A program made the position numbers and the translations under genes. 64,000 nucleotides of DNA from Microbacterium sulfonylureivorans (GTDB lineage: Bacteria > Actinomycetota > Actinomycetes > Actinomycetales > Microbacteriaceae): NCBI RefSeq assembly GCF_003999995.1, contig NZ_RJAD01000004.1, positions 124,001-188,000 of the forward strand, in the 5' to 3' direction. Shown one piece after another: positions 24,314-34,108 of this stretch. Below the pieces are notes generated by a model that saw nothing but the letters and a program-made list of their open reading frames with translations, did no database searches and was not told where the DNA came from. Numbering within the stretch: the first letter of the stretch is position 1; each line of letters opens with the position of its first letter.

Positions 24314-26767
24314 TCACGCCCGGCGCTCGAGCCGGACGACCACCGACTTCGACGTCGGCGTGCCGCTCACGTCGGCGACGGAGTCGAGCGGCACGAGCAC
24401 GTTCGTCTCGGGGTAGTACGCGGCGGCGTTGCCCCGCGGGGTGCGGTACGCCACGACGCGGAACGCCTCGGCACGCCGCTCCTGGAGGATGCCGTCGACA
24501 CCGCGCCACTCGGAGACCAGATCGACGATCTCGTCCTCGGCGAAGCCCATCTCGGCGATGTCCTTCGCGTTGACGAGGACGACGCGGCGGCCGCCGTGGA
24601 TGCCCCGGTACCGGTCGTCCTTGCCGTAGATCGTGGTGTTGTACTGGTCGTGCGAGCGCAGCGTCTGCAGCAGCAGTCGTCCGCGCGGGATCACGGGGAA
24701 CTCGAGCGGATTCGTGGTGAACCGCGCCCTGCCGTCTGCCGTCGCGAACCGACGCGCGTCCCGCGGCCCGTTGGGCAGATGCAGGGTGCGACCCTTGTCG
24801 ATGCGCTCCTCGTAGTCGTCGAACCCGGGGATCACCCGTTCGATGTGCGCGCGGATCAGCGCGTAGTCGGACTCGAGAGCGGCCCAGTCGGCGTGGGGCG
24901 CGGTGCGCGCACGCCGCGTTGCGGAGAGCGGATGCCGCGCCCCGGCCGGGTGGGAGCCGCCCGCTTGCTCGGCCGCCGTGCGCTCGACCTGGCCGCGGTC
25001 GACGTCGGCGGCATCCACCGGCGCCGCCGACGTCTCCGGGGCCGGGGCATCCGCTCGCCCGAACAGCAGCCCGCACAGGCGCGCGACGATCGAGACCTCG
25101 CTCAGCAGCTCGTCGGACGGCGGCGCGAGACGGCCGCGGGACGAGTGCACGGCGCCCATCGAGTCCTCGACGGTGACGCGCTGCTCGCGGCCGCCGCGCC
25201 GGTCGCGGTCGGTGCGGCCGAGCGTGGGCAGGATGATCGCACGGCGTCCGGTCACGACGTGGGAGCGGTTGAGCTTGGTCGACACCTGAACGGAGAGGTC
25301 GACGCGCGCCATGGCCGCTTCGACGACGGCGGTGTCGGGCGTCGCCGAGACGAAGTTGCCCCCCATCCCCATGAAGAACCGCACCCTGCCGTCGCGCATG
25401 GCGCGGATCGCCTCGACCGTGTCGAAGCCGTGCTCGCGGGGAGCGGCGAACCCGAACTCGGCATCGAGCGCGTCGAGGAACGCGGCCGACGGCTTCTCGT
25501 AGATGCCGACGGTTCGGTCGCCCTGCACGTTGGAGTGGCCGCGCACCGGGCACACCCCGGCACCGGTGCGGCCGATGTTGCCCTGCAGCAGCAGCATGTT
25601 CACGACATCGCGCAGCGTCGGCACCGAATGCTTGTGCTGGGTGAGGCCCATCGCCCAGCAGACGATCGTCGCCTTCGAGGTGCGCACGGCCTCCCCCACC
25701 CGGCGGAGCGCCTTCTCGGGCAGCCCGGTGGCTTCGACGAGATCTCGCCACGAGGCATCCGCCATCGCCTGCCGGTACGCCTCGAAGCCGCTCGTGTGCT
25801 CCGCGATGAATGCATGATCGAGCACACCGCCCCCCGCAGCCTCGGCCTCGAGCAGGTGCTTGCCGATCGCCTGGAACAGCGCCTGGTCGCCGCCGAGGCG
25901 GATCTGCACGAACTGGTCGGCGAGCTTCGTGCCGCCGAACGCCACGCCGCGCACGGTCTGGGGGTTGTCGAAGCGGATCAGGCCCGCCTCGGGCAGCGGG
26001 TTCACGGCGATGATCGTCGCGCCGCGCGACTTGGCCTTCTCGAGCGCCGACAGCATGCGCGGGTGGTTCGTGCCGGGGTTCTGGCCCGCGACGATCAGCA
26101 GGTCCGCGTCGTGGATGTCGTCGATCGACACGGTGCCCTTGCCGATCCCGATGGTCTCGGTGAGCGCCGATCCCGACGACTCGTGGCACATGTTGGAGCA
26201 GTCGGGCAGATTGTTCGTCCCCACACCGCGCACCAGCAGCTGGTAGAGGAAGGCCGCCTCGTTGGACGTGCGGCCCGACGTGTAGAACACGGTGTCGTCG
26301 GGGTCGTCGATTGCGGCGATCTCGTCGGCGATCTCACGCAGGGCGTCCTCCCACGAGATCGGGCGGTAGTGGGTGGCGCCCTCGTCGAGGATCATCGGAT
26401 GCGTCAGCCTGCCCTGCTGCCCGAGCCACCAGTCGTCGTGGCCGCGCAGGTCGTCGATCGAGTGCGCCGCGAAGAACTCCGGCCCGATCCGGCGCAGCGT
26501 CGCCTCCTCGGCGACGGCTTTGGCGCCGTTCTCGCAGAACTCCGCGACGTGGCGCTTGTCCTCCTCCGGCCACGCACAGCCCGGGCAGTCGAAGCCGTCC
26601 TTCTGGTTGACCTGCATGAGGGTCTGCACCGACCGGGCGACGCCCATCTGCTCGTTCGCGATCTGCAGCGCGTGCAGCACCCCGGGCACGCCGACGGCGA
26701 CCTTCTTGGGCTTCGTGACGCGGACGCGCGTCTCATCGATGTCGGCTTTCGGGGGCTTCGTCGCCAT
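24314..26767 (-). CDS. FdhF/YdeP-family molybdopterin oxidoreductase
   Basis: An 817-residue molybdopterin enzyme of the FdhF/YdeP family. It has the family's DGFDCPGCAWPEE near residue 58, the candidate Mo-ligand Cys in NMCHESSG, GQNPGTNHPR, GNIGRTGAGVCPVRGHSN and a C-terminal molydopterin-binding domain (NTTIYGKDDRYRGIHGGRRV). No selenocysteine codon is needed. The biochemical role of YdeP-type proteins is not settled; some are linked to acid resistance or formate oxidation. About residues 567-622 form a low-complexity insertion absent from the usual family layout, marked by an inverted repeat in the DNA. It is the only obvious molybdoenzyme in the window. Confidence 0.9.
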   Translation of the reverse strand: MATKPPKADIDETRVRVTKPKKVAVGVPGVLHALQIANEQMGVARSVQTLMQVNQKDGFDCPGCAWPEEDKRHVAEFCENGAKAVAEEATLRRIGPEFFAAHSIDDLRGHDDWWLGQQGRLTHPMILDEGATHYRPISWEDALREIADEIAAIDDPDDTVFYTSGRTSNEAAFLYQLLVRGVGTNNLPDCSNMCHESSGSALTETIGIGKGTVSIDDIHDADLLIVAGQNPGTNHPRMLSALEKAKSRGATIIAVNPLPEAGLIRFDNPQTVRGVAFGGTKLADQFVQIRLGGDQALFQAIGKHLLEAEAAGGGVLDHAFIAEHTSGFEAYRQAMADASWRDLVEATGLPEKALRRVGEAVRTSKATIVCWAMGLTQHKHSVPTLRDVVNMLLLQGNIGRTGAGVCPVRGHSNVQGDRTVGIYEKPSAAFLDALDAEFGFAAPREHGFDTVEAIRAMRDGRVRFFMGMGGNFVSATPDTAVVEAAMARVDLSVQVSTKLNRSHVVTGRRAIILPTLGRTDRDRRGGREQRVTVEDSMGAVHSSRGRLAPPSDELLSEVSIVARLCGLLFGRADAPAPETSAAPVDAADVDRGQVERTAAEQAGGSHPAGARHPLSATRRARTAPHADWAALESDYALIRAHIERVIPGFDDYEERIDKGRTLHLPNGPRDARRFATADGRARFTTNPLEFPVIPRGRLLLQTLRSHDQYNTTIYGKDDRYRGIHGGRRVVLVNAKDIAEMGFAEDEIVDLVSEWRGVDGILQERRAEAFRVVAYRTPRGNAAAYYPETNVLVPLDSVADVSGTPTSKSVVVRLERRA
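24926..25056. repeat. In-frame insertion bracketed by an 11-bp inverted repeat
   Basis: GAGCGGATGCC (24926-24936) is exactly inverted as GGCATCCGCTC (25046-25056), with CCCCGGCC/GGCCGGGG extending the pairing nearby. The bracketed 131 bases encode the Ala/Pro/Arg-rich insertion at residues 571-614 of the FdhF-type protein, and a third GCATCC lies at 25011-25016. It looks like a palindromic element inserted without breaking the frame. Confidence 0.6.
24930..24944 (+). repeat. Exact 15-base copy of motif variant GGATGCCGCGCCCCG
   Basis: Inside the FdhF-type gene, whose strand reads the complement as Gly-Ala-Arg-His-Pro, a different frame from the modC and moeZ copies. Confidence 0.85.
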
Positions 26768-26850: not shown

Positions 26851-27471
26851 TCAGCCCGCCCACCAGGCCCGCACCGTGCCGCGGAGGTCGGCGCGGGCGA
26901 CCGCGCCGTGTCCGGGGGCCGAGACGGTCTCGCGAGAGTCGGCCGAGGCTTCCCGGTTGTCGCCCATGACCCACACGGCATCGTCGGGCACCGTCACCCG
27001 GAACGGGGTGCTTCCGCCCGGCCGCGCATCGTCGACGAAGGGCTCGTCCACCGGATCGTCGTTGACGACGAGGCGCCCGGTGCCGGCCTCGCAGCAGACG
27101 ACGACGTCGCCCGCGACGCCGACGATGCGCTTGACGAGCACGGTGCCCGGCGAGCCCGACCACCCCTCGCGGTCGACGAGGAGCACGATGTCGCCTCGCA
27201 CCGGCGTCGTCCAGCGGTCGTAGACGACGGTGTCTCCGCTGCGCAGCGTCGGGGTCATCGACCCGTTGCGCACGGTCGCCACGCCGAGTGCCGCCGTCGC
27301 GAGGGATGCCACGAGCACCGGCACGGCGACGGCGGCCAGCGCGAGCAGGCGACGTGGGCGGACGAGCGGATGCCGCGTCCCGCCGCCGTCGGAGAACGGA
27401 GCAGGATCGGCGACGGCGGACGCGGCATCCCTCCCCGTGATGGCGGACGGGCGATCGTCCAGCGCGGTCAC
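26851..27471 (-). CDS. lepB: Signal peptidase I
   Basis: A 206-residue type I signal peptidase. It has one membrane helix (about 42-66), catalytic Ser71 in NGSMTPTL, catalytic Lys114 in VLVKRIVG and the conserved VMGDNREASADSR block. Residues 1-38 are an unusual low-complexity cytoplasmic tail encoded by a DNA palindrome (27368-27430). The start GTG 27471 overlaps the DUF305 gene stop by four bases, so the peptidase is co-expressed with DUF305 and may process the exported proteins of this cluster. The GNAT- or Sec-wide house-keeping role cannot be excluded. Confidence 0.9.
   Translation of the reverse strand: MTALDDRPSAITGRDAASAVADPAPFSDGGGTRHPLVRPRRLLALAAVAVPVLVASLATAALGVATVRNGSMTPTLRSGDTVVYDRWTTPVRGDIVLLVDREGWSGSPGTVLVKRIVGVAGDVVVCCEAGTGRLVVNDDPVDEPFVDDARPGGSTPFRVTVPDDAVWVMGDNREASADSRETVSAPGHGAVARADLRGTVRAWWAG
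27368..27430. repeat. Palindromic GGATGCCGCGTCC element in lepB coding sequence
   Basis: GGATGCCGCGTCC (27368-27380) is exactly inverted as GGACGCGGCATCC (27418-27430). Inside it, CCGCCGTCG (27383-27391) pairs with CGACGGCGG (27411-27419). The hairpin codes for the disordered N-terminal tail of the signal peptidase. Confidence 0.65.
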
Positions 27472-28157
27472 TGGTCCCCGGCGAGCAGCGCGGTCATCGC
27501 GGTGATCTCGCGTTCCTGCTCGACGAGGACGTGCTTGCCCGACGTGCGGACGAAGGCGTTCGAGCCCTCGGTGACCGCGATCGTGGCCATCGCGAGCGCC
27601 CCTTCGTGGTGGACGATCATGAGCTCGAGGAAGAGCCTGTCTGCTTCGGCGCCCTCGGCCTCGTCGAGGGCGGCGAGCTGCGCAGGGGTCGCCATGCCCT
27701 TCATCCCCGCATGGTCTGCGTGGTCGCCGCACCCGGTCGGGATGCTGCCGGCAGACGCGTCGTGCGCCGCATGGGCGGCTCCCACGCCGTCGACGGGGAT
27801 GGCGCGGGTCCAGGCATCCTGCCACGCGTGCATCGTGTCGATCTCCGTCGACTGGTCGACGACGATGAACTCGGCGAGCGCCCGGGTGCGCTCGCGAACG
27901 TCTTCGGCCTCGAGCACCAGCCGGCTCAGTTCGAGCGCCTGCTCGTGGTGCGGGATCATGCCCTCGATGTAGCAGTGGTCGGCGACCGACGGGTACTCCG
28001 CCGCCGCGGGCGGCGCCGCACCGGATGCCGCAGCCACCGGCGCGGTCGTCGCCACGCCGTCGCGGGGAGCGGTCATGCCGAACGCCACCGTCGCGAGCCC
28101 GGCCAGTCCGGCCGTGACGGCGAGGACGACTCCGGCTCCTGCAGCACGACTGCGCAT
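27468..28157 (-). CDS. Exported DUF305 protein (copper-binding type)
   Basis: A 229-residue exported protein with an N-terminal signal/anchor (residues 5-28). It contains two copies of the DUF305 His motif: MIPHHEQALELS near residue 67 and LMIVHHEGALAMA toward the C-terminus. Between them is a His-rich stretch with CGDHADHAGMKGM, also likely to bind metal. The DUF305 protein CopM of cyanobacteria binds copper; by analogy this may carry or buffer copper outside the membrane. It lies downstream of a copper amine oxidase gene and overlaps the signal peptidase gene. Confidence 0.88.
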   Translation of the reverse strand: MRSRAAGAGVVLAVTAGLAGLATVAFGMTAPRDGVATTAPVAAASGAAPPAAAEYPSVADHCYIEGMIPHHEQALELSRLVLEAEDVRERTRALAEFIVVDQSTEIDTMHAWQDAWTRAIPVDGVGAAHAAHDASAGSIPTGCGDHADHAGMKGMATPAQLAALDEAEGAEADRLFLELMIVHHEGALAMATIAVTEGSNAFVRTSGKHVLVEQEREITAMTALLAGDQ

Positions 28158-28234: not shown

Positions 28235-30145
28235 TCAGGCGTGCGCCTTCAGCCCCGCCGAGCGACGCAGGTACCAGGAGGTGCCCGCGAGGCCGGCGCC
28301 GGCGACGAGGAGCACGATGCCCGACAGCAGCCAGCGGTTCGCATCGGTGCCGGTCGACGCGAGGGCACCGAGGACGGCCGCGGGCGACGCTGCGGCCACC
28401 GTGAAGGTGCCCTCCGCGACGATCGACGACGTCTGGCCGGTCAGCACAAGCCGGTGCTCACCGGTCGGCGTGTCCGCCGGGACGATGAACTGGACGCTCA
28501 CCTCGCCGTCCTCGTCGGCGACGAAGGTGCCGACGTCGACGGGGTCGGAGTGCATGACCGCACTGACGGTCTCACCGGGGGTGAATCCGGCCGCCGTCGC
28601 CGTCTGCGTCGCACCGGGGGCGACCTCGGACTGCCCGAACGAGACCGGGTTGGCCGGCGGCGTCTCGCCGTCGTCCGTCGGGTCGGTCGTGGGCGCCGGT
28701 GTGGCGCCGTCGGTCGGTTCGGCGGTGGGCGTGGGCTCCGATGTCGGCTCTGTCGTCGGCGTCGGCTCGCTGGTCGGCGTCGGCTCCGAGGTGGGCGTCG
28801 GCTCGGTCGTCGGCGTCGGTGTGGCGGTGGGCGAGGCGGTCGGCGTCGGCGTGATGTTCGGGTTCGGAACGCCGCGCATGTCGCCGTTCACCCACTTGCG
28901 GCCCTCCGGGATGATCGGATTCTGCGCCGCGAAATCGCGCGGGTAGAGGGTGAAGCCCTGCCAGTGGATCGGCATGGGGCTCTGGTCCTCGTCCCGGTTG
29001 ATGTGGTGGAACCCGACGTTGACCCACGCGATCGGGTCTTCGAGCGTTTCGCCGTCGGCGATGTAGTCGGTCACCATCTCTCCGGCCTTCGACGGGATCA
29101 GGTTGTGGCTCGCGTGGATCTCGTCCGACTTCGCCTTGGTGAACGCGATGTCGTAGTCGGTCTCCGGGTTCAGGTTGTAGGCCTGGTCGCGAGGCACGAT
29201 GATCTCGTACGAGCGCGCGTGACCGTCGGCGTTCAGGCTCGCGGGGTTGACGACACGGTATGCCTCGCGGTTGGAGCCGAGCGTCTTGGTCTCGTTCGTG
29301 ATCTCGGTGAGCGCCGTCTCGAGGATCGCCGTGTGACCGGTGTCGCCGGTCGTGCCGTACTCGCCGGTCGGCGTGGTCGCGAACTTCTCGACCTTCAGGT
29401 CTGAGCCGCTGTCGATCCCGAAGTCCACGCGCCAGAACGCCGAGTGGTAGTGGTTGACGGCGAAGTCCTCCTGGCCGGGCGCGATCGGCCAGCCCTGGTT
29501 GACGACGTCGACGTAGTCGTTGGGCGACAGGTCACCGGTCGCGCCGAGCTGCACCGAGATCTCGCCGTCGTCGTGGAAGCGGTACTGCGTCTGGTACTCG
29601 TACCAGCCGATCCGCGAGACCGTGTGCAGGACGAGGTCGGTGCCCTGGGCGGCGTAGAGCGCGTCGCGGGTGATGTTCGAGCGGTACGCGAGCCCGGAGT
29701 CCTCCTCCCCGATGCAGATCGCGGGGATGACGCCGCGGGTCGCGTCGACCCAGGAGGTGCGGACCTCGCCGACGGGGCAGTCGACGGCCTCGATGGCCTG
29801 CAGCCGGCGTCCGCCGACCTGGTAGGTCGTGACGTCGTTGTACTCGGTGGCGCCGGTGTCGTACGGCACGTTGAGCTGCGCGAGGGCGATCGAGTCGAGC
29901 ACGAGGATCGGCGACGCGTCGTCGCGCGGCTGGTAGGCCACCTTGTCGAGCACCAGTCCTCGGTACGAGTCGATCCGCCAGCACATCTGCCAGCTCGAGC
30001 CGGAGTCCATCTCCTCCGAGACGAGCGACTCGCCGGAGCAGGATGCCTCGGTGACGGTCTGCGCCGTCGCCGCGACGGGTGCGGTGAGGATGAGACCTCC
30101 CGCGAGCAGGGCGACCGCTGTGGCCGCGCTGAGGATGCGTTTCAT
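28235..30145 (-). CDS. Wall-anchored copper amine oxidase catalytic domain
   Basis: A 636-residue exported protein. After a signal peptide (1-29), residues 50-410 match the catalytic domain of copper amine oxidases: probable base D104 in EYNDVTTYQVGG, candidate topaquinone Tyr182 in GWYEY, and copper ligands H232, H234 (NHYH) and H380 or H381 (VGFHHINRDED). The usual N-terminal N2/N3 domains are missing but resemble the product of the next gene upstream. The Asn normally before the cofactor Tyr is Trp181. A Pro/Thr/Glu repeat stalk (431-494), an Ig-like domain (498-583) and LASTG (595-599) with a hydrophobic tail and Arg-Arg follow, a class E sortase signal. ATG 30145 has GGAGAG upstream. Confidence 0.85.
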   Translation of the reverse strand: MKRILSAATAVALLAGGLILTAPVAATAQTVTEASCSGESLVSEEMDSGSSWQMCWRIDSYRGLVLDKVAYQPRDDASPILVLDSIALAQLNVPYDTGATEYNDVTTYQVGGRRLQAIEAVDCPVGEVRTSWVDATRGVIPAICIGEEDSGLAYRSNITRDALYAAQGTDLVLHTVSRIGWYEYQTQYRFHDDGEISVQLGATGDLSPNDYVDVVNQGWPIAPGQEDFAVNHYHSAFWRVDFGIDSGSDLKVEKFATTPTGEYGTTGDTGHTAILETALTEITNETKTLGSNREAYRVVNPASLNADGHARSYEIIVPRDQAYNLNPETDYDIAFTKAKSDEIHASHNLIPSKAGEMVTDYIADGETLEDPIAWVNVGFHHINRDEDQSPMPIHWQGFTLYPRDFAAQNPIIPEGRKWVNGDMRGVPNPNITPTPTASPTATPTPTTEPTPTSEPTPTSEPTPTTEPTSEPTPTAEPTDGATPAPTTDPTDDGETPPANPVSFGQSEVAPGATQTATAAGFTPGETVSAVMHSDPVDVGTFVADEDGEVSVQFIVPADTPTGEHRLVLTGQTSSIVAEGTFTVAAASPAAVLGALASTGTDANRWLLSGIVLLVAGAGLAGTSWYLRRSAGLKAHA

Positions 30146-30162
30146 CGGGTTTCTCTCCATGG

Positions 30163-30987
30163 TCATGAGACGGACAGGACGGTGCTGGTGGACAGGTTGA
30201 CGACGTACGTGGTGGTGGTCAGGAACGAACCCCCGTCGACCTGCGCGAGCAGCTGCACGCAGCGGTCGACGCCGCACGACTCGGCGCCGAAGGATCCGGC
30301 ATCCGTGATGAACGAGTGGGCGGTGAGCTCGACCTCGGCGGAGCCGGGGGTGAGCGCCGAACCGCCGGTGAGGGTCGCGAACTCCTGGTCGAGCGGCTCC
30401 GACAGGTCGGAGTCGAGCAGAAGCTCCCACGCGAGCGCGGTCTCGGCGTCGGTCGGAGCGGGCTGGGTGCCGCTCGCACGCTCGACGGTCTCGACCTTGC
30501 CCTTCGTGACGTTGACGATCATGCTCACCGTCTCGTTCGTCGCGTAGTCGTAGTAGAGCGACAGCAGGCGGCGCTGACCGTCGGTGTACGCCTGCGGGTC
30601 GGCGACATCGGTCGAGAGGAACTGGAGTCCGGTGTCACCGAACAGGTCGCCCCCGGCGGCGAACGCGGCGTCCTGAGCACCGAGGTAGCGGACGTACTCG
30701 ACCTCGGCGCCGGAGAGCTGATCGTAGGCGGCGGCGACCGTCGCCGGATGCGCGATCGTCTCGGCCTTCTCGGGCGCGTCCTCGTCGGTGCTGTCGGCAG
30801 CGATCGGGGTGGCCGCGGCGTTCTGCGGCGACGAGGTCGCCTGCACGGCGGTCTGCGTCGCGAAGACGAGGGCGACGGCGGCTGCGCCCGCAGCGACGGC
30901 CGACGCGACGCCGAGCGCGCGCGGGCTGACCAGGCGCCGCGAGGGCGGCGGCGAGTCTCCCTCTGGCGAGAGCTGTGTGTCAGTCAC
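30163..30987 (-). CDS. Exported protein resembling amine oxidase N2/N3 domains
   Basis: A 274-residue protein with a hydrophobic export or anchor helix (24-45) after a twin Arg. From residue 69 it reads like the N2 and N3 domains of copper amine oxidases: LSGAEVEYVRYLG, then RRLLSLYYDYATNETVSMIV, TKGKVETVERASGTQPAPTD, and at the end CVQLLAQVDGGSFLTTTTYV. It starts with GTG 30987 with AAAGGA upstream, and its stop is 17 bases before the catalytic-domain gene. I infer that the oxidase is made as two exported chains. The similarity was judged by eye, so the alternative is an unrelated exported partner. Confidence 0.7.
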   Translation of the reverse strand: MTDTQLSPEGDSPPPSRRLVSPRALGVASAVAAGAAAVALVFATQTAVQATSSPQNAAATPIAADSTDEDAPEKAETIAHPATVAAAYDQLSGAEVEYVRYLGAQDAAFAAGGDLFGDTGLQFLSTDVADPQAYTDGQRRLLSLYYDYATNETVSMIVNVTKGKVETVERASGTQPAPTDAETALAWELLLDSDLSEPLDQEFATLTGGSALTPGSAEVELTAHSFITDAGSFGAESCGVDRCVQLLAQVDGGSFLTTTTYVVNLSTSTVLSVS

Positions 30988-31228: not shown

Positions 31229-32668
31229 ATGAGCGCACTCGCCGACGCGATCCGGCAGGGTCGGCCCCGGTCCGACCTCGGCGGCAGCTCGCCGTTCACC
31301 GGCCTGCGCCGACGTCATGCGCGCACGGTCGACGTCGTGGCCCAGTCGGTCGCTGCGACCGCGCCCGCCGGAGTGCTTCTCATCCACCCCGGAGCGCTCT
31401 ACGCCCGCAGTGGGTCGCTCGCGTTCTTCGACATCGCCGTCACCCTCACGCTCGTCATCGGGGTGGCGCTCGTGATCGGCATGTTCGCGCGCCGCGTGGC
31501 GAGCACCGGCTCTCTCTACACGTTCGCGGCACGCGGGCTCGGTGCCCACGTCGGCCTCGTCGCCGGCAGCGCGCTCGGGATCGGCTATCTCGCGATCGCG
31601 ATGAACACGCTCAGCTCGGGCTCGAGCCGGGTGGCGCAGCTCCTCACGGCGAGCGCCGAGCCTCCCGGGTGGATGATCGCCGGACTGATGGTGCTGTTCG
31701 GCGCCGTCATCGCGGTGGTCATCGCCCGCGGTCTGCGGATGTCGACCCGCATGCTGCTCGTGATCGAGTCGTTCGCGGTGCTCACCGTGCTGGGGCTCTC
31801 GATCGCGGCGCTCAGCGCGACCGAGTGGGACCTCGGCCTGCTGGCACCCGATCCGTCGCATGCGTCGATCGACGCGATCATGACCGGCGTCGCCTTCTCG
31901 CTGATCGGGTTCGTCGGTTTCGAGAGCGGCGTCGCCCTCGGCCCCGAGACTCGACGGCCCTTCGCGGCAGTCCCCCGCGCGATCCTCGTGAGCGTGGGCG
32001 CCACCGGCCTGGTGATGCTCGTCGGGACGGCCGCGCAGCTGTCGATCGTCGCCGAGGCGCCGGACCAGGCATCCCTCTCCTCTGTCACCGGCCTCGCGTG
32101 GCTGGTCGATCTCATCGTGGCCGTCTCGTTCCTCGCCTGCGCGCTCGCGATGACGAACGCGGCCACCCGCCTCGCGTTCGCGATGAGCCGCGAAGGGCTC
32201 CTCCCCGAGATCTTCGGCCGCGTCTCGCGGCGGGGAGTTCCTGCGCTCGGCGGCGTGGTGCTGGCGTCGTTCGTGCTCGCGGTGCCGGGGCTCGTCTACT
32301 CGTTCGGAGGGTCCCGGCAGGACCTGCGCATGGTGACGTCGCCCGGGTCGACGATCGGATTCGTGCTCGCCTATGCCCTGGTCTGCCTGGCCGCGCCGGT
32401 CTTCCTCGCCCGGATCGGCGAGCTCACCGTCCGCTCCGCGGTCCTCGCGGCGGTGCCCTTGGCCGGCCTCGTCGCCGTGCTGGTGTTCTACCTCGTCTCG
32501 GCGGCCGCCGACAACCCCGCGGGTCTGTGGTGGGCCGCGGTGATCCTCGGGGCGGTCGTCGCCGCCGGAGCGGTCCGGCTGACGCGGCATCCCGGCCTCG
32601 CCGCCCGGGTGGGTGTGCACGACTGGCCGATCGACGCGGACTGCATCGACCCGGCGGAGGGACGGTGA
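31229..32668 (+). CDS. APC-family amino acid/amine permease
   Basis: A 479-residue transporter of the amino acid-polyamine-organocation superfamily with 12 hydrophobic helices. FVGFESGVALGPETRRPFAAVPRAI is the family signature around helices 6-8 (the FxGFE motif). Strong ribosome-binding site AGGAGGAAGC just before ATG 31229. It is divergent from the amine oxidase unit and overlaps an IclR gene, so amines or amino acids related to the oxidase are the likely cargo, by inference. The 241-base gap between 30988 and 31228 holds the divergent promoters, but I see no clear operator. Confidence 0.86.
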   Translation: MSALADAIRQGRPRSDLGGSSPFTGLRRRHARTVDVVAQSVAATAPAGVLLIHPGALYARSGSLAFFDIAVTLTLVIGVALVIGMFARRVASTGSLYTFAARGLGAHVGLVAGSALGIGYLAIAMNTLSSGSSRVAQLLTASAEPPGWMIAGLMVLFGAVIAVVIARGLRMSTRMLLVIESFAVLTVLGLSIAALSATEWDLGLLAPDPSHASIDAIMTGVAFSLIGFVGFESGVALGPETRRPFAAVPRAILVSVGATGLVMLVGTAAQLSIVAEAPDQASLSSVTGLAWLVDLIVAVSFLACALAMTNAATRLAFAMSREGLLPEIFGRVSRRGVPALGGVVLASFVLAVPGLVYSFGGSRQDLRMVTSPGSTIGFVLAYALVCLAAPVFLARIGELTVRSAVLAAVPLAGLVAVLVFYLVSAAADNPAGLWWAAVILGAVVAAGAVRLTRHPGLAARVGVHDWPIDADCIDPAEGR

Positions 32669-33411
32669 GCGGAGTGGATGCGGCGTCCCGCGCCCGACTG
32701 CCCGAGAAGGGTCTCGGTCTCGCGCTCGAGATCCTCGAGCAGGTCGCGCGCCACGACGAGGGCTCCACGGCAGCCGACATCGCCCGCGCCGTGGGCGCCC
32801 CCCGCGCCACGGTCTACCGCGTGGTGAACTCCCTCGTGCGCGACGAGTACCTGGTCCGGCGGGCGGACTTCTCGGGTTTCCTGCTCGGAGCGCGCGTGCT
32901 CGAACTCGCCGCGGTCGTCGATGCGCACCGTCGTCCGGCGTACGCGCCGGTGGTGGAGCGCCTGCGCGCGGAGACGGGCGAGGCGGTGCACCTGTTCGGG
33001 TTCCACAGCGCGGGCCTGACCATCCTCGACGAGGATGCGAAGCATCCGCTGTCCGACCCGGCGACCCTCCTCGGCGACCCGACCCGATCGGCCATCGGCC
33101 ACCTGTGGCTCATCGCCCACCCCGATCGCGAGGCTCCCCGCGCACCGCGCTGGACGGCCCGACCCTCGGCCGAGGAACTCCAGGCGATCGCCGATGCCTA
33201 CACCGTGCGCGGCTACACCGAGCAGGTCGCCATGCTGTCACCCGATCGCGGATGCCTCGCAGTGCCCGTCCGCAACCACCGCGCCGAGACGGTCGGCGCG
33301 GTCACGCTCTCGACGTCGATCTCGCGACTGTCTGTCGCCGCGCGCCACGTGCACGCCTTGCGCGGCGCCGCCGAGGCCCTCGCGGGTGTGGAGCCGCTCA
33401 GCGGTTGGTGA
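32665..33411 (+). CDS. IclR-family transcriptional regulator
   Basis: A 248-residue IclR regulator. The N-terminal winged helix (residues 15-70) has STAADIARAVGAPRATVYRVV; the C-terminal effector domain has GEAVHLFGFHSAGLTILDE and GCLAVPVRNHRAETVGAVTLS. The usual Cys-Val-Ser-Arg ligand loop is diverged. The start GTG 32665 overlaps the permease stop by four bases. It likely controls the permease and perhaps the divergent amine oxidase unit. Confidence 0.9.
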   Translation: MSGVDAASRARLPEKGLGLALEILEQVARHDEGSTAADIARAVGAPRATVYRVVNSLVRDEYLVRRADFSGFLLGARVLELAAVVDAHRRPAYAPVVERLRAETGEAVHLFGFHSAGLTILDEDAKHPLSDPATLLGDPTRSAIGHLWLIAHPDREAPRAPRWTARPSAEELQAIADAYTVRGYTEQVAMLSPDRGCLAVPVRNHRAETVGAVTLSTSISRLSVAARHVHALRGAAEALAGVEPLSGW

Positions 33412-33466: not shown

Positions 33467-34108
33467 TCAGCGCGGTCGGGCTGCGAGCGCCTCGAACGCG
33501 GCGGTGTCGTGCTGCCCGTCCGCGATCGCCTGCTCCGCGGCTTCCCGCACGAGGCTGTGCGGATCCGCGGCGAGCGCGTCCTGCGCGAGATCGATCACGC
33601 CAGCGGTGTGGGCGAGCATCAGCTCGGCGAAGAGCGTCTCCGCGTCGGCGCCGGCTGCCTCGGCGAGGTCGGTGCGCTGCGCCCACGTCGGGACGCCGGG
33701 CATGTCGGCGTGGGCGCCGTGACCCGCGCACGGCCCCTCGTCGGGGCGCTCGAGCGGCTTGGCCGCGGCCCATGCCACGTACCACTCCCGCAGGTCGGCC
33801 ATCTCGGCATCCTGCGCCGCCACGACGTCCGTCGCGACCTCGCGCGCAGCCGTCGAGATCCCGTCGGCGTCGAGGAGCACCGCGCCCATCCGCCGCGCCT
33901 CGACGCGGTAGAAGATCATCGATTCGACAAAGCAGAAGTCGGCCTCCGAGACGGGCTCGGCCGGTCCGGAGCCCGAGGGCGATGCCAGGACGGTCGGCGC
34001 CTTCGCACCCGTCGCGCCCGCGGTCACCGCGAGGGCGACGACCGTCGCCGCTGCGCCGAGCGCCACGACGAGGCCGGCGGCGGCGAGTGCCCTGCGCAAC
34101 GAGACCAC
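33467..34108 (-). CDS. Diverged exported DUF305 protein lacking His motifs
   Basis: A 213-residue exported protein with a signal/anchor at residues 8-32. It aligns along its length with DUF305 proteins: DFCFVESMIFYRVEARRM corresponds to the first motif and LFAELMLAHTAGVIDLAQ to the second. The paired histidines are gone: MIFYR replaces MIPHH, and LAHTAG replaces LMIxHHEG. A CAGHGAHADMPG stretch retains some possible ligands. It may have lost metal binding or changed ligand. It starts with GTG 34108, 47 bases after the HerA-like gene. Confidence 0.75.
   Translation of the reverse strand: MVSLRRALAAAGLVVALGAAATVVALAVTAGATGAKAPTVLASPSGSGPAEPVSEADFCFVESMIFYRVEARRMGAVLLDADGISTAAREVATDVVAAQDAEMADLREWYVAWAAAKPLERPDEGPCAGHGAHADMPGVPTWAQRTDLAEAAGADAETLFAELMLAHTAGVIDLAQDALAADPHSLVREAAEQAIADGQHDTAAFEALAARPR

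Follow-up and report, generated by a model that had tools for sequence, protein, structure and literature searches.

A conserved actinobacterial locus that probably encodes a copper amine oxidase in two chains, found in Microbacterium sulfonylureivorans

A pair of adjacent genes with the domains of one enzyme

The stretch of DNA analysed here (the window) comprises 64,000 nucleotides (nt) of Microbacterium sulfonylureivorans (GCF_003999995.1, NZ_RJAD01000004.1, positions 124,001-188,000), and its minus strand carries two adjacent open reading frames (ORFs) that probably encode a single copper amine oxidase (CAO) divided between two polypeptides, with domains D2 and D3 on the upstream chain, hereafter the partner, and the catalytic domain D4 on the downstream chain (Table 1). 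The partner ORF starts with GTG and encodes 274 amino acids (aa), the catalytic ORF starts with ATG and encodes 636 aa, and 17 nt lie between them. A purine-rich stretch precedes the start of either ORF. In the window and in many relatives, there is also an alternative in-frame ATG or GTG that shares 4 nt with the stop of the partner, and the catalytic chain may begin there instead. The export signals of both chains were assessed by eye and from a predicted N-terminal helix, and the partner contains a single pair of cysteines, C238 and C243.

Table 1. Features of the oxidase locus and its surroundings, in window positions
Feature	Position	Strand	Remarks
Putative D2+D3 (N2+N3) subunit	30163..30987	-	Hydrophobic N-terminal export segment (predicted helix 22-43), linker, D2 ~86-172, D3 ~180-274
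Putative catalytic (D4) subunit	28235..30145	-	Signal peptide 1 to ~28 (by eye), Cu_amine_oxid 51-411, Thr/Pro-rich linker, further small domain, putative LASTG-type sorting signal 595-599
Codons W181-Y182-E183	29597..29605	-	Cofactor Tyr Y182; counted from ORF start 30145
DUF305 (CopM-like) protein	27468..28157	-	PF03713, E 1.7e-37; 77 nt downstream of catalytic gene
Signal peptidase I (S26)	26851..27471	-	PF10502, E 4.8e-27; 4-nt overlap with DUF305 gene
Divergent amino-acid permease	31229..32668	+	PF00324, E 8.2e-17
IclR-type regulator	32671..33411 (5' boundary provisional)	+	PF09339, PF01614; adjoins permease

The catalytic chain and its altered cofactor site

The downstream product matches PF01179 (E 5.1e-40; 138 bits, cut-off 27) and is the one match to this family in the genome, and no N2 or N3 model matched it in the Pfam search. 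A profile alignment of its D4 with 20 single-chain CAOs from actinobacteria, spanning 350 columns (pairwise E 5e-32, 25% identity), pairs H232, H234, and H381 with the copper His, D104 with the base Asp, Y95 with the active-site Tyr, and Y182 with the cofactor Tyr, the roles of these columns being those that we take them to have in the known enzymes except where PMC3382800 states them. All six residues are invariant in the 20 rows aligned (the window chain and 19 relatives), and the Glu after the cofactor Tyr is kept in most of them. An earlier note on this DNA, which had placed the two ORFs 17 nt apart and had read the downstream one as a catalytic domain with copper ligands, base, and cofactor Tyr but lacking N2 and N3, is thus borne out on these points; for the cofactor site, the Tyr is there and the full consensus for topaquinone (TPQ) is not. 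In the motif R-I-G-W-Y-E, the Tyr and Glu match the consensus, as given in PMC3382800, whereas Arg stands in place of Thr and Trp in place of Asn. Neither this Trp nor the Thr/Pro-rich linker, the further domain, and the putative LASTG-type sorting signal of the C-terminal region had figured in the earlier note.

Among the 120 listed of 472 relatives of the catalytic chain, the position preceding the cofactor Tyr holds Trp in 112 and Asn in 6 and was unread by the search pattern in 2; none of these 120 has a precomputed N2 or N3 Pfam domain. Asn is retained in the catalytic chains of loci L025 and L042, and the change to Trp may therefore have arisen within the split-type group. Because its motif lacks both the Asn and the Thr, the catalytic chain might no longer be an amine oxidase, forming no TPQ and leaving the complex with a binding, structural, or other redox role; the prevalence of Trp favours this view, as does PMC3382800, according to which an Asn-to-Ala change at the same place in HPAO-1 allowed only 5-10% TPQ formation. 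Such a loss is nevertheless quite unlikely given the invariance of the three His, the base Asp, and both Tyr, the conservation of the following Glu, and the retention of Asn in L025 and L042; furthermore, N381A AGAO (AGAO being the phenylethylamine oxidase of Arthrobacter globiformis) was solved as a holo form, according to titles in the PDB.

The C-terminal tail, read by eye, consists of LASTG, a hydrophobic stretch, and RR. The NCBIfam LAXTG model scores this putative sorting signal below its cut-off (17.7 against 65 bits), and the genome contains two sortase matches.

Identity of the partner chain

Searches with the partner as a single sequence returned little: in Pfam only the AGAO-like N2 model appeared, below threshold (E 0.42), and in NCBIfam and the PDB sequences CAO matches were sub-threshold or zero. 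When a profile of the partner was compared with the D2+D3 region of the 20 single-chain CAOs, 167-168 columns aligned with a probability of 96-97% (pairwise E 3.4e-9 and 7.2e-11), while the control comparison with the catalytic part of the same enzymes gave 0.8%. Structure prediction followed by fold comparison likewise assigned the partner, over its full length, the fold of CAO D2+D3. The identity of the partner is therefore settled by profile-profile and fold comparison, which matched where single-sequence searches alone did not. The D2 and D3 alpha/beta domains of a TPQ CAO are present, but they are carried by a separate upstream chain, and the succession D2-D3-D4 on one polypeptide is replaced by two ORFs both here and in 48 of 50 relatives.

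Distribution and shared history of the two halves

These 50 loci were retrieved by a search of genome contigs with the catalytic chain, a method biased toward near relatives. In 48 of them, belonging to several families, the catalytic gene is immediately preceded on its own strand by a partner-like frame. The earlier note had suspected N2 and N3 in the upstream product and had proposed a fold check and a search for the same pair in other actinobacteria; the predicted fold is not an unrelated one, and the pair recurs. The first possible start of the catalytic gene lies -7 to +111 nt from the partner in the 46 loci counted, a set that excludes L024, where the partner frame continues past the end seen in L026, and L035 (Phytohabitans suffuscus), where the catalytic frame (L035:4895-6151) reads as shifted near its start, through either sequencing error or decay. 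The partner was not found at the loci of L046 (Nonomuraea antri) and L048 (Acrocarpospora corrugata), nor in their genomes, for which 150 of 203 and 150 of 176 candidates, respectively, were scored. Their catalytic frames (L046:4980-6257 and L048:4980-6299) are possible stand-alone D4 enzymes, and an exported-looking protein of ~520 aa, for which the L046 copy has no Pfam match, is encoded upstream in place of the partner.

The two halves also occur together at larger scale. Of 296 genomes in the phylum, with at most 8 candidates scored in each, 6 contain the partner at E<1e-80, and these same 6 have the split-type catalytic domain (PF01179, E 3e-37 to 4e-42); the chance of this coincidence would be ~1e-12 if genomes were independent, a figure that serves only as a yardstick because they are related. 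A further 8 genomes gave partner matches of only E 1e-5 to 1e-3, and none of them has the split-type chain. The other 25 PF01179-positive genomes comprise 23 with canonical CAOs (E 1.7e-146 or better, at 27 places) and 2 in which the matches are weak and partial only. At 22 of the 27 canonical places, D2+D3 and D4 lie in one frame; of the other five, three have frames of 647-688 aa, L066 lies at a sequence edge, and L096 has two frames. Of 199 genomes in the family, the same 3 contain, side by side, the partner and the split-type chain (E<1e-180), and 42 other genomes have matches to the catalytic profile (E 1.6e-35 to 7e-11) and no partner match.

Trees were built for D4 (22 split and 20 single) and for D2+D3 (20 split and 20 single). 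The single-chain sequences were drawn from 23 fetched loci (L062-L084), 20 of which were used for profiles and trees; L066, with only D4 in a frame beginning at the sequence edge, was dropped, and L077 and L080 fell outside the start-motif pattern, although their D2+D3 and D4 are in one frame. In both trees, the split and single types fall on opposite sides of a long branch with a support of 100/100. Several groupings recur in both, namely Microbacteriaceae with Jiangella and Compostimonas, an Actinoplanes-Phytohabitans-Motilibacter group, Streptomyces pairs, and a Nonomuraea group, and this is consistent with joint descent of the halves. There is some discordance, as the D2+D3 tree alone groups L025, L031, and L042, all on long branches, with the Microbacteriaceae side. 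Because no outgroup was included, the trees do not decide between fission and fusion.

It might be supposed that the pair is merely an ordinary single-chain gene broken recently by a frameshift or an assembly error, as the halves are adjacent and collinear and a possible case of this kind is seen in L096. There (L096:822-3277, a second CAO copy of canonical type in genome G074), the D2+D3 frame and the D4 frame share 16 nt close to the D3-D4 linker, which may reflect a frameshift or an independent split. For the window, this explanation is rejected because the split arrangement is conserved, being common to 48 of the 50 relatives in several families; in addition, both halves are equipped with a hydrophobic N-terminus and a start region of their own, and the split group is set off from single-chain CAOs by the long branch. 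The likelihood of recent breakage is consequently close to nil.

A probable two-chain oxidase, possibly at the cell surface

Taken together, homology and predicted fold for each half, conserved adjacency, co-occurrence, and joint descent form the computed basis for regarding the two genes as one CAO divided between a D2+D3 chain and a D4 chain, a reading to which we give a probability of about four in five. Homology, fold, genomics, and modelling thus support a conserved two-chain locus, whose enzyme would belong to a known class instead of founding a new one. The open-licence PMC papers listed in the literature searches include none that describes such a two-chain enzyme.

For the arrangement of the chains, the homologous pair from Jiangella was modelled with AlphaFold as one D2+D3 and one D4 chain covalently joined. 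Of the alignments of concatenated and single chains, one of 91 rows (A4) was discarded, as the partner-only rows mostly shared very little with the partner half of row 1 in terms of identity, and a smaller one of 34 individually checked rows (A5) was used; L035 was left out as a paired row on account of its apparently shifted frame. The joined pair was predicted in the CAO arrangement with the partner in the place of D2/D3.

Several considerations weigh against a divided oxidase. The Pfam N2 and N3 models stay under their own cut-offs on the partner, and the partner profile retrieved no CAO from the PDB sequences. The catalytic D4 may have no strict need for a partner, since none was detected at the loci of L046 and L048 or among the candidates scored in their genomes, and activity is not assured for a chain with Trp at the position where the HPAO-1 substitution so reduced TPQ. 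The predicted docking is not independent evidence because the chains were covalently joined, the pair was a homologous one, and AlphaFold was trained on CAO structures. The joined model also has a mean predicted local distance difference test score of 73.8, with low stretches in the catalytic half at 432-436, 487-509, 600-602, and 665-669, and its full-length Foldseek alignments to AGAO chains have root mean square deviations of 9.5-11 A.

The MelC1/MelC2 system of Streptomyces offers a different model, as MelC1 is a caddie that is encoded before the tyrosinase MelC2 and is unrelated to the enzyme's own domains. By analogy, the partner could be a descendant of D2+D3 that now acts as a transient helper in maturation or copper delivery and stands outside the working enzyme. 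The two-gene order with a small, apparently exported protein encoded just before an apparently exported copper enzyme fits this idea, as do the seeming self-sufficiency of L046 and L048 and, in 26 of the 50 relatives, the presence of a DUF305 copper-type gene immediately behind the catalytic one. However, the partner, unlike MelC1, is homologous to CAO D2+D3, has that predicted fold over its full length, and is predicted in the D2/D3 place, and the match of a caddie sequence to it is at chance level (E 1.1, in the N-terminal segment). We therefore consider a helper role improbable, and less probable than the loss of oxidase activity.

If the two genes do encode one divided oxidase, the chain break would lie in the D3-D4 linker, and both chains would be exported and would probably join outside the cell membrane, docking in the manner of D2 and D3 in single-chain CAOs. 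Two such pairs may then dimerise through D4 into a 2+2 heterotetramer in which copper bound at H232, H234, and H381 would convert Y182 to TPQ. At the cell surface, to which a sortase could tether the window's oxidase, the enzyme would oxidise primary amines, with aldehyde, ammonia, and hydrogen peroxide as products. Copper may come from the DUF305 protein, and processing of the chains may fall to the signal peptidase. A fuller version is unlikely as a whole, if somewhat less so than either a helper role or a lost activity. In it, a D2D3 + D4 heterotetramer outside the cell would be served by a copper-handling protein and a signal peptidase of its own and would be switched on when the chains join, and the Trp-altered site would make cofactor formation dependent on the partner or the helper rather than purely self-processing.

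Neighbouring genes

The DUF305 protein encoded downstream of the catalytic gene scores 84.9 bits with the CopM model, close to its cut-off of 90, which suggests a possible role in copper handling. DUF305 was confirmed with Pfam at L014, L021, L023, L027, L031, and L042, in the last of these upstream of the partner. A second CopM-like DUF305 gene lies at 33467-34108 of the window, so that the region is flanked by two. DUF305 was rejected as a universal part of the system, given that it is directly downstream in only about half of the loci and that the Streptomyces loci gave zero tblastn matches; at L032, the sole Streptomyces locus at which the downstream gene was tested, that gene is the unrelated HEPN_SAV2148. 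Signal peptidase I is found within 3 kb downstream in 22 of 50 loci and may process the exported oxidase chains, possibly as a dedicated enzyme. At 20 of 50 loci, the divergent permease lies on the upstream side of the partner, and an IclR regulator, which may regulate the oxidase locus, occurs nearby in the window, L021, and L023. Further downstream, an FdhF/YdeP-type molybdopterin oxidoreductase (window 24314-26767) is seen at 13 loci, 12 from Microbacterium and one from Solirubrobacter (L025).

Relation to known enzymes and significance

TPQ copper amine oxidases are homodimers with exchanged beta-hairpin arms. AGAO and the other bacterial single-chain CAOs (PF01179 with AGAO-like N2/N3) share with the pair described here the D2, D3, and D4 folds and their order, the three copper His, the base Asp, the cofactor Tyr, and the active-site Tyr, but they consist of one chain rather than two, and their Asn before the cofactor Tyr is Trp in most of the listed relatives of the catalytic chain. 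The CAOs of Escherichia coli (1qak and others) and Hansenula polymorpha (CAO-1, HPAO-1; 1ekm and others), the latter named peroxisomal in PDB entries, are single chains as well, unlike the window pair. According to PMC3382800, every structurally characterised CAO is a homodimer whose 70-80 kDa subunits carry D2, D3, and D4 in succession on a single sequence. Other proteins that are elsewhere one chain are likewise divided between two genes, as in split Doa10 and split cox2, although these proteins and their cell compartments are unrelated.

A natural division between D2D3 and D4 in many actinobacteria would make the role of D2 and D3 directly testable by comparing the catalytic half with and without its partner, and it would show what they contribute to folding, to the loading of copper, to cofactor formation, and to the substrate channel. 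The replacement of Asn by Trp is likewise a natural experiment at a position that affects cofactor formation.
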